Of a stretch of 64,000 nt of DNA, positions 4,270 through 63,189 are shown piece after piece (the first letter of the stretch is position 1; each line of letters begins with the position of its first letter). Location of the stretch: positions 4,154,001 to 4,218,000 of the forward strand of contig NZ_CP052757.1 in NCBI RefSeq assembly GCF_009708005.2, read 5' to 3'. This stretch comes from Cellulosimicrobium protaetiae (GTDB lineage Bacteria; Actinomycetota; Actinomycetes; Actinomycetales; Cellulomonadaceae). The notes beneath the pieces were generated by a model. The model was not told where the DNA came from. It did not search any database and saw only the letters and a list, made by a program, of their open reading frames with translations. The position numbers and the translations under genes were made by a program.

Positions 4270-4578
4270 CCGAGGTAGAACCCTGGTACCGCGAGATAGA
4301 ACCGTGGTCACGCGAGGTAGAACCGTGGTCGTGCCCGACGGCGCATGGTTGCGTTGGGTGGTCGAGGTGAGTGGTGGTGCCGCGTCTACCATCCGCCGCT
4401 CGTTCCTCGCGGCTCCCGCCAAGCCCGCCACGACGCGGCACCACCACTCACCCCGACCGGCGTCGTCTCGCCCTGGTCGGTCCTCAGCCGGGCGGCCGCA
4501 AGCCCGCCACTCGCATGACCAGGGGCCTACCTCGGCAGACCACGGTTCTACCTCGGCAGACCAGGGGTCTACCTCGGG
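4270..4578. repeat. Family A composite inverted-repeat element, copy 1
   Basis: Three direct units of about 21 bp (4270-4330, consensus CGCGAGGTAGAACCGTGGT) face three inverted units (about 4527-4578). Between them lies a core of about 148 bp (4331-4478) that recurs at 58591-58738. Inside the core a perfect 21-bp stem (4366-4386 with 4432-4452) encloses a 45-base loop. The element fills the 372-bp gap between two converging genes, and its outermost inverted unit supplies the TAG stop of the LacI gene at 4569. No transposase is encoded, so it is non-autonomous if mobile. No gene is supported in this gap. Confidence 0.85.
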
Positions 4579-12945: not shown

Positions 12946-13625
12946 GCGCGCGCGACGACGTCCTCGGCCGCGTCCGCGCCGCGCTCGGCGGGTCGACGAC
13001 GACCGGCTCGGCGGCGTCCGGCTCCGTCCCGCGGGCGTACCGCGAGCGCGGCGACCTCGCGCCCGGGTCGCCGGAGGCCGTAGACGTCCTCGTCGATCGG
13101 CTCGTCGACTACCGGGCGCACGTACACGTGGCCGCCACCCCCGGCGAGGTGGCGGCGATCGTCGGCGACCTGCTCGCGGACGCCACGTCCGTCGTCGTGC
13201 CGCCCGAGCTTGACACCGCGTGGCTGGGCGCGCTGGGCGCCGGGAGCGCCGTCGTGCCCGATGCACGCGACGACCCGCGCACTCCCGACGAGCTCGATCA
13301 GGTGGACGCCGTCGTCACCGCGGCGCGCGTGGCGATCGCCGACACCGGGACGATCGTGCTCGACGGCGAGCCCGACCAGGGGCGCCGCGCGATCACGCTC
13401 GTCCCCGACCTGCACGTGTGCGTGGTGCGCACCGACCAGGTCGTGGGGACGGCCCCGGAGGCCGTGCGGCTGCTCGCCGCACACCCGGAGCGACCGCAGA
13501 CGTGGATCAGCGGCCCCAGCGCGACGAGCGACATCGAGCTCTCCCGCGTCGAGGGCGTCCACGGCCCGCGCACCCTGCACGTGGTCCTCACCCCGCCGAG
13601 GGAGAACCGTAGTCGCGCGAGGTAG
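12942..13625 (+). CDS. lutC: L-lactate utilisation protein LutC (LUD domain)
   Basis: A 227-residue LutC/YkgG protein, third subunit of the lactate oxidation complex. The LUD fold shows VVVPPELDTAWLG, VDAVVTAARVAIADTGTIVLD, the conserved RRAITLVPDLHVCVV strand and SGPSATSDIELSRVEGVHGPR near the end, a strongly conserved family signature. ATG 12942 overlaps the lutB TGA (ATGA). The last ten residues (PPRENRSRAR) and the TAG stop are encoded by the first two family A repeat units, so the natural C-terminus probably ended slightly earlier before the repeat arrived (inference). Confidence 0.93.
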   Translation: MSARDDVLGRVRAALGGSTTTGSAASGSVPRAYRERGDLAPGSPEAVDVLVDRLVDYRAHVHVAATPGEVAAIVGDLLADATSVVVPPELDTAWLGALGAGSAVVPDARDDPRTPDELDQVDAVVTAARVAIADTGTIVLDGEPDQGRRAITLVPDLHVCVVRTDQVVGTAPEAVRLLAAHPERPQTWISGPSATSDIELSRVEGVHGPRTLHVVLTPPRENRSRAR

Positions 13626-13721
13626 AACCGTGGTGGCGCGAGGGAGAACCGTGGTGGCGCGAGGGAGAACCGTCGTCGCGACCACGGTTCTCCCTCGGCG
13701 AACCAGCGTTCTACCTCGCGG
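13596..13721. repeat. Family A repeat array between lutC and the Nudix gene
   Basis: Four direct units of 21 bp (13596-13616, 13617-13637, 13638-13658, 13659-13679; consensus CGCGAGGGAGAACCGTGGTGG) are followed by two inverted units (13679-13698 and about 13699-13721). Both converging genes end inside it: lutC with TAG at 13623-13625, the Nudix gene with TAG at 13711-13713. The whole could fold as nested hairpins and act as a two-way terminator. Unlike loci at 4.3 and 58.6 kb it has no central core. Confidence 0.85.
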
Positions 13722-22856: not shown

Positions 22857-22930
22857 GCGAGGTAGAACCACCGGTCGCGAGGTAGGACTCGCCGAGCTCT
22901 ACCTCGCGACCGCTCGTTCTACCTCGCGGG
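22857..22930. repeat. Family A repeat cluster downstream of clpC
   Basis: Two direct units (GCGAGGTAGAACCACCGGTC and GCGAGGTAGGACTC) followed by two inverted ones (GAGCTCTACCTCGCG and GTTCTACCTCGCGG). It lies between the clpC terminator and the organosulfur operon and touches no gene. Confidence 0.8.
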
Positions 22931-58546: not shown

Positions 58547-59085
58547 CGCGAGGTAGCGTCGTGGTCGCGCGAGGAAGAGCCGTGGTTCTTGTGCCCGACG
58601 GCGCGTGGCTGGCTGGTGTGGTCGGGGTGGGTGGTGGTGCCGCGTCTACCATCCGCCGCTCGTCCCTCGCGGCTCCCGCCAGGCCCACCACGACGCGGCA
58701 CCACCACCCACCCCGCCCGGCTTCGTCGCACCCTGGTCTGTGCGCGCCTCGGGCGACCGCCCGCGGTGCCGGATCCGCCAGCGTCGCATCGCGCCGAGCA
58801 GGTGGTCCTGGCTGGTCCTGGGCGGTGGACGAGCCATGGTCACCTGTTCGGCCTGCCGGGACCGCCTGGTCGGCCAGGCGTCGGGCATGGCGGGTCGACA
58901 GGTGAGCGGTGGGGGTGGGCTCGGATGCGAAGGGGCGTCAGAGCGGCGCTCCGAGAACCCACGGCCCAGAGACCAGGGTGACGGCGCGGCGGCCCGAGCA
59001 CCGAGACCACCCACGCCGCGGACCGACCACGCGGAGCTGAGGGCCGACCACGGTTCTCCCTCGCAGAACCGCGGTTCAACCTCGG
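58547..59085. repeat. Family A composite element, copy 2
   Basis: Left border units CGCGAGGTAGCGTCGTGGTC and GCGCGAGGAAGAGCCGTGG (58547-58585), a core of about 148 bp (58591-58738) that matches 4331-4478 almost base for base, about 300 bp of unrelated GC-rich sequence, and inverted border units (GACCACGGTTCTCCCTCG and AACCGCGGTTCAACCTCGG, about 59045-59085). The core stem is 23 bp (58624-58646 with 58692-58714). No gene is supported in the whole 611-bp gap between MarR and topA; plus-strand ORFs here have the repeat in them and no ribosome site. Confidence 0.8.
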
Positions 59086-59110: not shown

Positions 59111-61873
59111 CTACTTCTTGGCGGCGGTCTTCTTGGCGGCAGGCTTGCGGGTCGTCGTGCGCTTCTTGGCCGGGCCCTGCGCGCGCTTCTCGGCGAGCAG
59201 CTCGATCGCACGCTCGGGCGTGATCGACTCGGGCGTGACGTCGCGCGGGAGGGTGCGGTTCGTCTCGCCGTCGGTGACGTACGCGCCGAACCGGCCGTCC
59301 TTGACGACGATCGGCTTGCCGCTGTTCGGGTCGTCGCCGAGCTCGCGCAGCGGTGGGGTCGCGGCACGCTGGCCACGGCCGCGCTTCGGCTGCTTGTAGA
59401 GCTCGATCGCCTCGTCGAGGGTGACGGTGAACATCGACTCCTCGTCGGGCAGCGAGCGCGAGTCGGTGCCCTTCTTGAGGTACGGGCCGTAGCGGCCGTT
59501 CTGCGCCGTGATCTCCTCGCCGGACTCCGGGTCGGTCCCGACGACGCGGGGCAGCGACAGCAGGCGCAGCGCGTCGTCGATCGTGATCGTGTCGAGCGTC
59601 TGCGTCTTGAGCAGCGACGCCGTGCGGGGCTTGGGCTGCGCGGCCTTGGCCTTCTTCTGCGCGGCGGCCGAGAGGCTCGTGTCGATCGGCGGGAGGTCGA
59701 GCACCTCGGTGACGTAGGGCCCGTAGCGTCCGGCCTTCGCGACGACCTCGTTGCCCGAGACGGGGTCGGTGCCCAGCACCTTGCCGTCGTCGGCGCCGGC
59801 CGCGAGGAGCTCGCGCGCCTTGGCGACGGTCAGCTCGTCGGGGGCGACGTCGTCGGGCACGGACGCGCGCGGCGGGTTCTCGCCCTCCTTGACGGGGACG
59901 GAGAGGTCCTCCACGTAGGGCCCGTACCGCCCGACCCGGAGCTGGATGCCCTCGCCGATCGGCACCGAGTTGATGCCGCGCGCGTCGATGTCGCCGAGGT
60001 TCGCGACGAGGTCGCGCAGGCCCTCGGCGTCCTCCCCCTTCGCGGCGTCGCCGAAGTAGAACTCCGTGAGCCACGCGACGCGGTCGCGGCGCCCGGCGGC
60101 GATCTCGTCGAGGTCGGCCTCCATCCGGGCGGTGAAGTCGTAGTCGACCAGCCGGTCGAAGTGCTCCTCCAGGAGCCGCACGACGGCGAACGCGAGCCAG
60201 CTCGGCACGAGCGCCTGCCCGCGCGACAGCACGTACCCGCGGTCCTGGATGGTCGAGATCGTCGAGGCGTACGTCGACGGCCGACCGATCCCGAGCTCCT
60301 CCAGCGCCTTGACCAGGCTGGCCTCGGTGTACCGGGGCGGGGCCGACGTCGAGTGGCCGTCCGCCGTGAGGTCGTCGCCGCGCAGGGCGTCACCCTCGGC
60401 CATCTGCGGCAGGCGCGCGTCGTCGTCACCCTTCGCCGCGACGACGGGAGCGTCCTCGGCGTACCGGTCGACGTCCGAGCTCTCCTCGTACGCGGCGAGG
60501 AAGCCGCGGAACGTGATGACGGTGCCCGACGCGGCGAACACGGCGTCGCGACCCGCGACGTCACCCGCGTCAGCCGACAGCGTCGCACCGAGCCGCACGG
60601 ACGCCGTCGAGCCCTTGGCGTCGGCCATCTGCGACGCGACGGTGCGCTTCCACACGAGCTCGTAAAGCCGGAACTGGTCGTCGCTCAGCTCGCGCTTGAC
60701 CTGCGCGGGGGTGCGGAACGAGTCGCCCGCGGGGCGGATCGCCTCGTGCGCCTCCTGCGCGCCCTGGTTCTTCGCGGCGTAGACCCGCGGCTTCTCCGGG
60801 ACGAACTCGGGGCCGTAGAGCTCGGCCGCCTGGCGGCGGGCCGCCGTCGTGGCCTCGGCCGACAGCGACGGCGAGTCCGTACGCATGTAGGTGATGTAGC
60901 CGTTCTCGTACAGCGACTGCGCGGTGCGCATCGCCTGGCGCGACGACATGCGCAGCTTGCGGCTCGCCTCCTGCTGGAGGGTCGACGTCGTGAACGGCGC
61001 CGCGGGGCGGCGCGTGTACGGCTTGGTGTCGAGCGAGCGCACGGCGAACGCCGCGTCCGCGAGTCCGGCCACGACCGAGCGGGCCGTCGCCTCGTCGAGG
61101 TGCGTGACGCCGTCGCGCACCGCGGCCGCCTTGAGCTGCCCGCGGTCGTCGAAGTCGCGGCCCGACGCGACGCGCGCGTCACCGACCTGCACGAGCCGGG
61201 CGCCGAACGCCTTCCCGGCGTCGGGAGCCGACGCGTCCGCGTGCTCGAACGTCCCCGTGACGTCCCAGTACTCGGCCGCGACGAACGCCATGCGCTCGCG
61301 CTCGCGCTCGACCACGAGGCGCGTCGCGACCGACTGCACGCGACCGGCCGAGAGGCCCTGCGCGATCTTGCGCCACAGCACCGGCGAGACCTCGTAGCCG
61401 TAGAGGCGGTCGAGGATGCGGCGCGTCTCCTGCGCGTCGACGAGGTGCTCGTCGAGGTCGCGCGTGTTCTGCAGCGCGCGCTGGATCGCCTCGCGCGTGA
61501 TCTCGTGGAACACCATGCGCTTGACCGGGACCTTGGGCTTGAGCGCCTCGAGGAGGTGCCACGCGATGGCCTCGCCCTCGCGGTCCTCGTCGGTCGCAAG
61601 GTAGAGCTCGTCGGCGTCCTTGAGCGCCCGCTTGAGCTCGGCGACCTTCTTCTTCTTGTCCGCGTAGACCTCGTAGTACGGGTCGAACCCGTTCTCGACG
61701 TCGACCGCGAACTTGCCGTACGGGCCCTTCTTCATGTCCGCGGGCAGCTCGGACGGCTGCGGCAGGTCGCGGATGTGCCCGACGCTCGCCTCGACCTCGT
61801 AGTCGTCGCCCAGGTAGCCCTGGATCTTGCGAGCCTTGGCGGGAGACTCGACGATCACGAGCTTGCGTGGCAT
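59111..61873 (-). CDS. topA: DNA topoisomerase I
   Basis: A 920-residue type IA topoisomerase, relaxing negative supercoils. TOPRIM domain starts MPRKLVIVESPAKARKIQ, with catalytic D95-E96-D97 (ATDEDREGE). The active-site Tyr is in YITYMRTDS (Tyr329). SAGRVQSVATRLV, the DNA-gate motif, is intact. There are no zinc fingers: the C-terminus has at least four repeats of the actinobacterial topoisomerase I type (GRYGPYVEDL, GRYGPYVTEV, GRYGPYLKKG, GRFGAYVTDG) followed by a Lys/Ala-rich tail (KKRTTTRKPAAKK) that binds DNA non-specifically. ATG 61873. Confidence 0.98.
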   Translation of the reverse strand: MPRKLVIVESPAKARKIQGYLGDDYEVEASVGHIRDLPQPSELPADMKKGPYGKFAVDVENGFDPYYEVYADKKKKVAELKRALKDADELYLATDEDREGEAIAWHLLEALKPKVPVKRMVFHEITREAIQRALQNTRDLDEHLVDAQETRRILDRLYGYEVSPVLWRKIAQGLSAGRVQSVATRLVVERERERMAFVAAEYWDVTGTFEHADASAPDAGKAFGARLVQVGDARVASGRDFDDRGQLKAAAVRDGVTHLDEATARSVVAGLADAAFAVRSLDTKPYTRRPAAPFTTSTLQQEASRKLRMSSRQAMRTAQSLYENGYITYMRTDSPSLSAEATTAARRQAAELYGPEFVPEKPRVYAAKNQGAQEAHEAIRPAGDSFRTPAQVKRELSDDQFRLYELVWKRTVASQMADAKGSTASVRLGATLSADAGDVAGRDAVFAASGTVITFRGFLAAYEESSDVDRYAEDAPVVAAKGDDDARLPQMAEGDALRGDDLTADGHSTSAPPRYTEASLVKALEELGIGRPSTYASTISTIQDRGYVLSRGQALVPSWLAFAVVRLLEEHFDRLVDYDFTARMEADLDEIAAGRRDRVAWLTEFYFGDAAKGEDAEGLRDLVANLGDIDARGINSVPIGEGIQLRVGRYGPYVEDLSVPVKEGENPPRASVPDDVAPDELTVAKARELLAAGADDGKVLGTDPVSGNEVVAKAGRYGPYVTEVLDLPPIDTSLSAAAQKKAKAAQPKPRTASLLKTQTLDTITIDDALRLLSLPRVVGTDPESGEEITAQNGRYGPYLKKGTDSRSLPDEESMFTVTLDEAIELYKQPKRGRGQRAATPPLRELGDDPNSGKPIVVKDGRFGAYVTDGETNRTLPRDVTPESITPERAIELLAEKRAQGPAKKRTTTRKPAAKKTAAKK

Positions 61874-62046
61874 CCGATCCTGCTTTCGTCCGTACGTGCT
61901 GGTTCCGTGGGGGTGCGGTCGCGGTGCCCGACGGCGGCCGGTCGCCACCGCGGGCGGCGCGGCACTCGCGCCCGTCGCGCCGTGACGGCCTTCCGGTCGC
62001 CCGCCGCGGCAGCCTCTGACGTTACGCCACTCGCGCCAGCGGCACC

Positions 62047-63189
62047 CTATCGCTGAACGCGGCGGGCGTCCGGGCGGGCTGTGGACTGTCGGACGAGGAG
62101 CAGGACCGCGAACGCGGCGGCCGTCACGGCGAGCACCCCCGCGACACCACCCGCGTAGGCCGTGACCTCCTGCGCCGTCGTCGTGTCCCACGTCGCCGGC
62201 GTCGCGCGCAGGGCGAGCGCCGCCGCGACCCCGGCCGCGCCCGCACCGAGCAGCAGCAGGACCGCCATGACCGTCGACCCGGGGGTGGGACCGGCGCCCG
62301 GGTCGAGCGACGACCGCGGGGTGAAGGCGCACACGAGCGCGGCCCAGGCGAGCACGACGAGGACCGCCGCGACGACGTCGCTCGGGCGGTGCCACTGGCC
62401 GACGAGGGTCGACACCCCGGTCGCCGCCGTGTACGCGCCACCGAGGACGGCGACGAGCGGCCGGGCGCCGCGCGGCACGACGAGGAGCAGGGCCGCCGCG
62501 ACCGAGCCCGCGACCGTGGTGTGACCGCTGGGCAGGGAGTTCTCCCAGTGCCAGCCGCCGATGAGCTCCTCGCGGCCGAGGAGCGAGTGCTTGACGAGCT
62601 GCGTCGTGACGTTCGCGCCGACGACGAGGAACGCGACCTGCACCGCGAGCCCCCAGCGGCGACGCAGCAGCGCGATGCCCATCGCCGCCGCGAGGCCCCC
62701 GACGACGAACGCGACCGAGACCGTGTCCAGGACCGGCTCGGCCACGGCCCAGAGCTCGCCCTGCCCGGTGACGGCGCCGTCGAACGCTGCGCGCTCGAGC
62801 ATCTGCCCCGCGTAGGTGTCCACGAAGTACCGCCACACGACCCACGCCGCCGCGACCGCGAGCACCGCGACGACCGCCGCGACGACTCGCGACGCGGTGC
62901 TCGGCCCGTCGTCACGGCCAGCAGGAGCACCGGGCGACGGTCGCGGGGCGGGCGGGTGCGCGGACGCTCCCGGGTGACCGCCCGCGACGGCCGGGCGGCC
63001 GGGCGGGTACGGCGGCACGGGCTGCCCGGGCTGACCCGGCGGCACGGCGGCGTACGAGGGGACGGCCGGGCCGGGCGGCGTCGCCGGTCCAGGCGTGGGC
63101 GGCAGCACCGGCGGCGTCACCGGGAGCGGCCGCGTTCCCGTCCCGCCGCTGGTCGGCAGCGGCCGGGTCGGGGCGTGGTCGGAGGGCAT
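62047..63189 (-). CDS. PAP2-family membrane phosphatase
   Basis: A 380-residue membrane protein: a disordered Pro/Gly-rich cytoplasmic N-terminus (1-100), then about six spans with PAP2 active-site motifs. K200 with R206 (KHSLLGRE) is motif 1, S219-L-P220-S-G-H223 motif 2 (LPSGHTTVAG), and H267 with D271 (WHRPSDVVA) motif 3. It would dephosphorylate lipid phosphates such as undecaprenyl pyrophosphate or phosphatidic acid on the outer face. ATG 63189. Unusually long N-terminal tail; the catalytic core is complete. Confidence 0.92.
   Translation of the reverse strand: MPSDHAPTRPLPTSGGTGTRPLPVTPPVLPPTPGPATPPGPAVPSYAAVPPGQPGQPVPPYPPGRPAVAGGHPGASAHPPAPRPSPGAPAGRDDGPSTASRVVAAVVAVLAVAAAWVVWRYFVDTYAGQMLERAAFDGAVTGQGELWAVAEPVLDTVSVAFVVGGLAAAMGIALLRRRWGLAVQVAFLVVGANVTTQLVKHSLLGREELIGGWHWENSLPSGHTTVAGSVAAALLLVVPRGARPLVAVLGGAYTAATGVSTLVGQWHRPSDVVAAVLVVLAWAALVCAFTPRSSLDPGAGPTPGSTVMAVLLLLGAGAAGVAAALALRATPATWDTTTAQEVTAYAGGVAGVLAVTAAAFAVLLLVRQSTARPDARRVQR

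Follow-up and report, generated by a model that had tools for sequence, protein, structure and literature searches.

That a fold is under selection is usually proved by compensatory base changes, and the question raised by this locus is how far that proof carries for a long hairpin that recurs in the genome of Cellulosimicrobium protaetiae with both of its arms altered. The window analysed here, a 64,000 nucleotide stretch of that genome, contains two copies of a 148-bp core, which a sequence-only reading had taken for a two-copy structure that could be a non-autonomous mobile element, a structured RNA or a DNA-bound hairpin. The explanation that best fits our data, and which we hold with about as much confidence as doubt, is that both copies belong to a family of DNA palindromes scattered through the genome, REP/RPE-like in behaviour but with a new sequence and architecture, that is recognised through its loops and has its stems kept perfect largely by template switching.

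Copy 1 (4331-4478, plus strand), which belongs to a young main subfamily, lies between a gene for a carbohydrate-active protein and a gene for a LacI-type regulator, and copy 2 (58591-58738, plus strand; genome positions 4212591-4212738) lies between a MarR-type regulator gene and a topoisomerase gene (59111-62845, minus strand). The long perfect stems first reported for them were confirmed, at 21 bp for copy 1 (4366-4386 with 4432-4452) and 23 bp for copy 2 (58624-58646 with 58692-58714), and the pair that is A-T in copy 1 and G-C in copy 2 is real, as one among many covarying pairs. Reading along the plus strand of copy 1, the 5' arm of this outer stem, P1, ends in two bases, TC, that pair with GA and are also the first two bases of the conserved loop 1, TCTACCATCC (4385-4394). 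There follow the 5' arm of a small inner stem, P2 (GCCGC, 4395-4399), its conserved loop TCGTTCCTC (4400-4408), the 3' arm of P2 (GCGGC, 4409-4413) and the conserved loop 3, TCCCGCCAAGCCCGCCACGA (4414-4433), of which the last two bases are again paired, within the 3' arm of P1. The plus strand of copy 2 has the same order, with loop 1 at 58645-58654, the P2 hairpin at 58655-58673 (loop TCGTCCCTC, 58660-58668) and loop 3 at 58674-58693. When the four strands of the two copies were folded as DNA, z-scores ran from -6.8 to -8.1 against dinucleotide shuffles.

The boundaries given earlier are right for the core but describe the core only, as copy 1 sits within a larger inverted repeat of approximately 330 bp, bounded by arrays of a 21-bp unit: three forward units, CGAGGTAGAACCSTGGTCG, on the left (4271-4330, plus strand) and three reverse units on the right (4523-4576, minus strand). 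Copy 2 has two degenerate units on its left (58549-58590, plus strand) and two reverse units on its right (59052-59084, minus strand), the latter adjoining the 3' end of the topoisomerase gene.

Whilst the recurrence at two loci stood, the status of a two-copy element did not. A BLAST search of the own genome (G000) with the 148-bp core returned at least 40 places (the best 40 of 254 candidates scored), and a covariance model of 93 positions, R1, gave 81 matches including weak antisense duplicates, which reduce to at least 58 non-overlapping places among the matches listed. The earlier proposal to search the genome and its relatives with such a model was carried out on 59 genomes, 20 of which had matches: all 17 Cellulosimicrobium genomes, with between 12 and 70 matches each at the initial setting and 82 in G015 once more candidates were scored, and three of the 42 others, namely a Luteimicrobium genome (G025, 13 matches), G026 and G047 (one match each). 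A lack of copies in related genomes, or many unpaired changes in the arms, had been named beforehand as grounds for abandoning the idea; further copies were found in relatives, and the changes in the arms are mostly paired. Plasmid and phage records gave no match to the element, nor did viral contigs searched with one exact pattern. Records labelled Sphaerisporangium cinnabarinum ATCC 31213 also contain the element (L084, L095, L128, L145 and L152), and their species label is probably wrong. A literature search returned no description of this palindrome family, which is not proof that none exists. The family is genus-wide and has both old and young members.

In the aligned copies the order of parts is constant: one arm of P1 (approximately 20-25 bp), TCTACCATCC, the P2 hairpin (mostly 5-7 bp) with its loop TCGTNCCTC, TCCCGCCAGRCCCGCCACGA, and the other arm of P1. 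Of 71 rows aligned to the model, 68 could be parsed; in these the three loop segments have mean identities of 0.92, 0.95 and 0.95, and the inner 14 bases of P1 have a mean identity of 0.66, with 62 distinct arms. Six rows (L407, L408, L415, L416, L327 and L329) form a subtype recognised by eye, with a P1 junction of approximately CTCGGGCT...CCACGCCCTTCGC. The near-invariant loop module is carried on a long stem that varies between copies, with changes in one arm matched by changes in the other.

Covariation in the stem is strong. In a set of 31 sequences, two-sided changes occurred in 18 of 30 pairs, 97.9% were paired, and 50 two-sided cells were counted against 4.9 (sd 2.0) after shuffling. 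The statistical test of covariation that had been suggested gave 485 two-sided cells against 122.7 (sd 8.0) in shuffles of a 71-sequence set, with two-sided changes in 26 of 28 pairs and 95.5% of stem cells paired, figures that are biased towards the model because this set was aligned to it; slid controls of the same set were all less than 50% paired. By one covariation measure, further pair types were not clearly above shuffles (59 of 500 shuffles reached the observed value). The earlier argument that co-varying partners reveal a fold that is selected, or copied as a structure, therefore needs dividing. The fold is indeed kept, but covariation alone is no proof of selection on it, because template switching during replication can rewrite or correct both arms of a stem in a single event, as the available part of PMC8794818 describes. 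The near-invariance of the unpaired loops is a stronger sign of constraint than the covariation.

We favour a model in which some factor would recognise the element, through its loops, as a DNA hairpin or cruciform, and in which additional copies would arise by way of that recognition. Template switching, by copying one arm onto the other, would be the main process keeping the arms perfect, so that a whole stem could be replaced in place whilst the loops remained under sequence constraint. Wholesale changes of stem with few intermediates are then explained because template switching can replace the stem in one event; it does not account for the fixed loops, which need a sequence-specific use.

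The old members of the family occupy unchanged sites in different species, and in some cases in different genera, with changed stems and the same loops. The spacer between yebC and ruvC carries the element in 15 of the 17 Cellulosimicrobium genomes (14 by the loop pattern, together with the degenerate L255, a model match); the stems differ greatly between species (for example L242, L244 and L256) yet are paired, and none of the 13 outgroup loci read at this site showed the loop pattern. A second old site is the linker of ligD, where the insertion is in frame and none of the 17 linkers read contains a stop. Thirteen of the 17 genomes have an intact loop there, six in one orientation and seven in the other, and of the four remaining linkers three (L207, L209 and L216) fold as palindromes of reduced length. 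The element of the own genome makes up residues ~625-658 of LigD, after the phosphoesterase domain (481-573) and before the ligase domain (681-875), and the corresponding linker of Luteimicrobium also contains a copy, at residues ~499-531. By eye, ligD of L212 contains one half of a forward copy and, after it, an entire reverse copy, of which the simplest reading would be an ancestral tail-to-tail pair that has suffered differing losses.

Sites common to different genera extend beyond ligD. The spacer between nrdE and nrdF carries a copy in the own genome, a C. cellulans record, Luteimicrobium and G026, where it is the sole copy, and two more sites are common with Luteimicrobium (L311 with L087/L181/L195, and L325 with L416). 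Two further candidates for cross-genus sites were rejected: L329 and L408 lie in the same hrpA-type gene, but approximately 1.4 kb apart, and L420 has no copy beside the match to L321. The hrpA-type genes of G015 and Luteimicrobium have one copy each at differing sites. Within genes, a copy is also found at the same linker of MocR-type regulators in the own genome and in G015, and at the G015 loci L448 (contig C10) and L453 (contig C11) two opposite copies lie inside an error-prone DNA polymerase gene, whilst another opposite pair lies upstream of an additional gene for DNA polymerase III alpha. By a crude gene caller, intragenic copies run both along and against their host genes, and 25 of 37 copies in two G015 contigs are intergenic. 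Copies inside genes occupy tolerated positions, such as interdomain linkers. Because the family occupies both spacers and genes, in either orientation relative to transcription, recognition as DNA is favoured, probably in single-stranded or extruded form.

Counting against the model that we favour, the constancy of the loops in old copies points to selection at the level of the host, which a purely selfish element would not need. The orientation of copies was compared with the direction of replication. In G015 the ratio of plus to minus copies is 16:3 on contig C7, 3:16 on C8 and 7:0 on C12. Forty-nine of the 82 G015 matches could be mapped on the own genome (19 from C7, 19 from C8, seven from C12 and four from C1 below 430 kb; 33 were left out), and 42 of these 49 point with the replication fork (p = 4e-7; p = 0.0015 against an expectation of 65%). 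The mapping of C12 depends on one anchor, and one C8 match lies beyond the sequence examined. GC skew did not locate the origins, and the reference used was the position of dnaA and gyrB motifs at approximately 0.49 Mb in the own genome, together with a dnaA motif at 92 kb of C7. The crude gene caller split gene strands 250/250 on C7 and 130/165 on C8. We treat the polarity of G015 as real and that of the other genomes as suggestive: the copies aligned with the fork number 38 of 58 in the own genome (19 of 23 outside the main subfamily and 19 of 35 inside it), 17 of 23 in G008, 20 of 34 in G011 and seven of 13 in Luteimicrobium, counts that are not independent for the own genome, G008 and G011, as their copies are partly orthologous. 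No polarity was seen in the main subfamily of the own genome, in G011 or in Luteimicrobium. In the model that we favour, insertion or retention would be linked to the replication fork in at least one species.

The same observations support the strongest rival, a DNA signal maintained by the host, in which a loop-binding protein would read the hairpin at or behind the fork in the service of replication, repair or chromosome organisation. Near-invariant loops at cross-genus sites where stems turn over, copies within ligD, hrpA and the error-prone polymerase gene, and the orientation of the mapped G015 and the G008 copies would all be expected of such a signal. Less easily reconciled with it are the spread of match counts within the genus, from 12 to 82, the lack of the yebC-ruvC copy in two genomes (G004 and G013) and of an intact ligD copy in four, and the absence of polarity from G011, Luteimicrobium and the young subfamily, and overall we regard this explanation as possible but unlikely. 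In its narrower form, it is likewise a minority prospect that the old copies alone are a replication-oriented host signal, with approximately 39 fixed loop bases read single-stranded at the fork and a stem rewritten by template switching.

A structured RNA transcribed from the minus strand, for example a 3'-UTR element or a small RNA with functional purine-rich loops, would also predict the strong two-sided covariation, and here the wobble pairs are informative. Among 1966 cells of the 71-sequence alignment, 13 are GT/TG and 36 are AC/CA, so that wobble pairs account for 0.7% of stem cells in a plus-strand reading and 1.8% in a minus-strand reading. Such rarity favours DNA over RNA. Isolated mismatches flanked by Watson-Crick pairs are biased, with nine GT/TG against 28 AC/CA (p = 0.0026), and this excess of A-C over G-T on the plus strand, equivalent to tolerance of G-U on the minus strand, would favour folding of the minus strand unless it is mutational, which leaves some room for RNA. 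The placement of young copies at gene 3' ends would suit an RNA as well. Against it stand the low level of wobble on either strand, the occurrence of ligD copies in both orientations among species and of intragenic copies both along and against genes, and the lack of any Rfam match at the element. A scan of the window at the gathering cut-off found one tRNA, and a scan of five element loci at E up to 1 gave two weak matches, both away from the element, in keeping with the original statement that it was not recognised as any known riboswitch. We consider an RNA role doubtful, and somewhat more so than a host DNA signal. Of the three possibilities first raised, a mobile element fits one subfamily and a DNA hairpin is favoured, whereas the low wobble disfavours RNA.

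That subfamily comprises 35 very similar copies in the own genome (L001-L030 and L040-L044), including both copies of the window, and most have the inner stem GTGGTGGTGCCGCG. By a degenerate pattern, every one of the 35 is preceded on the left by one or more forward units of the 21-bp type, and for 22 of them reverse units follow on the right, no more than 400 bp away. The subfamily is patchy between species. An intact core is present at the 3' end of topA in two of 17 genomes, with one locus cut short, and at the site of copy 1 in two of 14, where some loci end at contig edges; at the latter site, the contig of L289 ends inside a core of the opposite orientation, and four relatives have short arrays of units alone. 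Similarly, of the 15 genomes with a match at the L049 site, the own genome alone has the copy, whose stem is odd. The existence of the young subfamily shows that extra copies do arise, and the conclusion that one subfamily behaves like a non-autonomous mobile element is supported. Judged as a MITE, many cores are flanked by inverted arrays, and neither a target-site duplication nor a cognate transposase gene was established; no clean empty site was established at the compared sites either. We do not propose that the core was inserted at the centre of dyad symmetry of the arrays, as the left junction ends in GGTTCT in only 17 of the 35 copies.

The arrays themselves look like an independent repeat, because two further inverted arrays in the window (13597-13718 and 22858-22926), forward then reverse, have no core between them. 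Exact units number 224 in the own genome, 157 in G004 and at most 38 elsewhere in the genus, where other species carry variants of the unit. Species-specific variants such as GAGGTAGTACCGCGGTC and GAGGTAGAGCCCTGGTC (L232, L233, L236 and L222) give the impression of concerted evolution within each genome.

Other palindromes occur near the same places. Next to copy 2, the window contains a second long palindromic module, GCGGTGGGGGTGGGCTCGGATGCGAAGGGGCGTCAGAGC...CCGAGCACCGAGACCACCC (~58905-59025), with related modules at the 3' end of topA in L222, L232 and L236, and a further repeat that starts with GAGCAGGTGGTC (~58797-58890); a palindrome of the latter type lies at the topA 3' end of L223, where the own genome has the core, and L224 is also listed. 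At the L049 site, L273-L275, L278, L279, L282, L285 and L286 have an unrelated near-perfect palindrome with the end GTCGTGCTCG or similar. In Cellulosimicrobium, gene 3' ends seem to act as hot spots for palindromes of several families.

Placement of this kind could suggest simple bidirectional transcription terminators, or stabilisers of mRNA 3' ends, and nothing more. With a crude gene caller, the spacers of the 35 young copies were 16 convergent, 15 tandem, none divergent and four unclassified, and the convergent or tandem position of all 31 classifiable copies would suit such a role. A terminator role alone would not fix loop segments of 9, 10 and 20 bases, copies are found in frame inside genes, and by eye a separate GC-rich hairpin already follows the gene upstream of copy 1; we therefore think it improbable that termination or stabilisation is the whole explanation.

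Several known systems resemble the family in part. Integron attC sites are folded DNA hairpins in which stem sequence is free and a few unpaired positions are recognised, together with outer core sites; in our family the conserved bases lie in inner loops rather than in outer core sites. The BOX elements of Streptococcus pneumoniae are modular intergenic repeats with a variable number of internal units, whereas the arrays described here stand on both sides of a separate core, in inverted order. From Rickettsia palindromic elements (RPEs) our copies differ in the conservation of their loops rather than their arms, in being mostly intergenic and in having some sites common to different genera. 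The likeness to RPEs is in the palindromes within protein genes, here in frame (PMC3733652, in the part available). Elements of the IS200/IS605 family differ from ours in that carrier genomes have no Y1 transposase match and our stems are long. The loops of their end hairpins are not known to resemble ours. Their resemblance to our family is in replication: IS200/IS605 elements use single-stranded DNA secondary structures on the lagging-strand template (PMC6006769, available in part), which would give replication-dependent orientation.

The closest resemblance is to REPs, BIMEs and REPINs, which, in the part of PMC3733652 available, are likewise numerous interspersed palindromes, mostly in convergent or tandem spacers near gene 3' ends, with some inverted pairs and with intragenic copies in genes of DNA synthesis and repair, including those for DnaE2, DNA ligase and RNA helicases; our family too is intragenic in DNA synthesis and repair genes, and plus-then-minus pairs 236-513 bp apart number five in G015, one in the own genome and one in G011. 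REPs are 20-40 bp long, with a GTAG or CGTC tag at one end, whereas our unit is of approximately 93 nt, with a two-level hairpin, approximately 39 near-invariant loop bases and freely varying stems, and is found in Actinobacteria. By eye, no GTAG/CGTC tag is present at the end of the palindrome or at the base of the stem, GTAG being seen only as the complement of a stretch of loop 1 that contains a position of 63% identity. No RAYT match was obtained either: the Y1 transposase domain PF01797 (E up to 0.001) was found in two of the 59 genomes, G050 and G057, and in none of the 20 that carry the element, and no transposase domain was found in the genes scanned around or between ten neighbouring or distant-genus copies. 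Size, two-level fold, lack of an end tag and lack of a RAYT match place the family outside REP/RAYT as defined, and despite the similar placement, inverted pairs and repair-gene copies (PMC3733652, as above) it is very improbable that these are classical REPs moved by RAYT, a Y1 tyrosine transposase.

Overall, the family that we favour, of DNA palindromes recognised through their loops, would represent a REP-like family in Actinobacteria in which no RAYT transposase was detected. Its intragenic copies lie in kinds of gene in which copies of unrelated REPs have been reported (those for DnaE2, a DNA ligase and an RNA helicase; PMC3733652, in the part available), which hints at a common mechanism. 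If the host-signal reading were true, a selected loop code would be separated from a stem maintained by mutation, at dozens of sites in one genome. As well as this, a single hairpin can be traced at one site across species and, at some sites, genera, with its stem replaced wholesale, few mispaired intermediates and constant loops, and such replacement at the same site makes it directly testable in bacteria whether template switching, and not selection alone, is what keeps a stem. The palindrome family looks like a natural test case for how hairpins in DNA are kept perfect.
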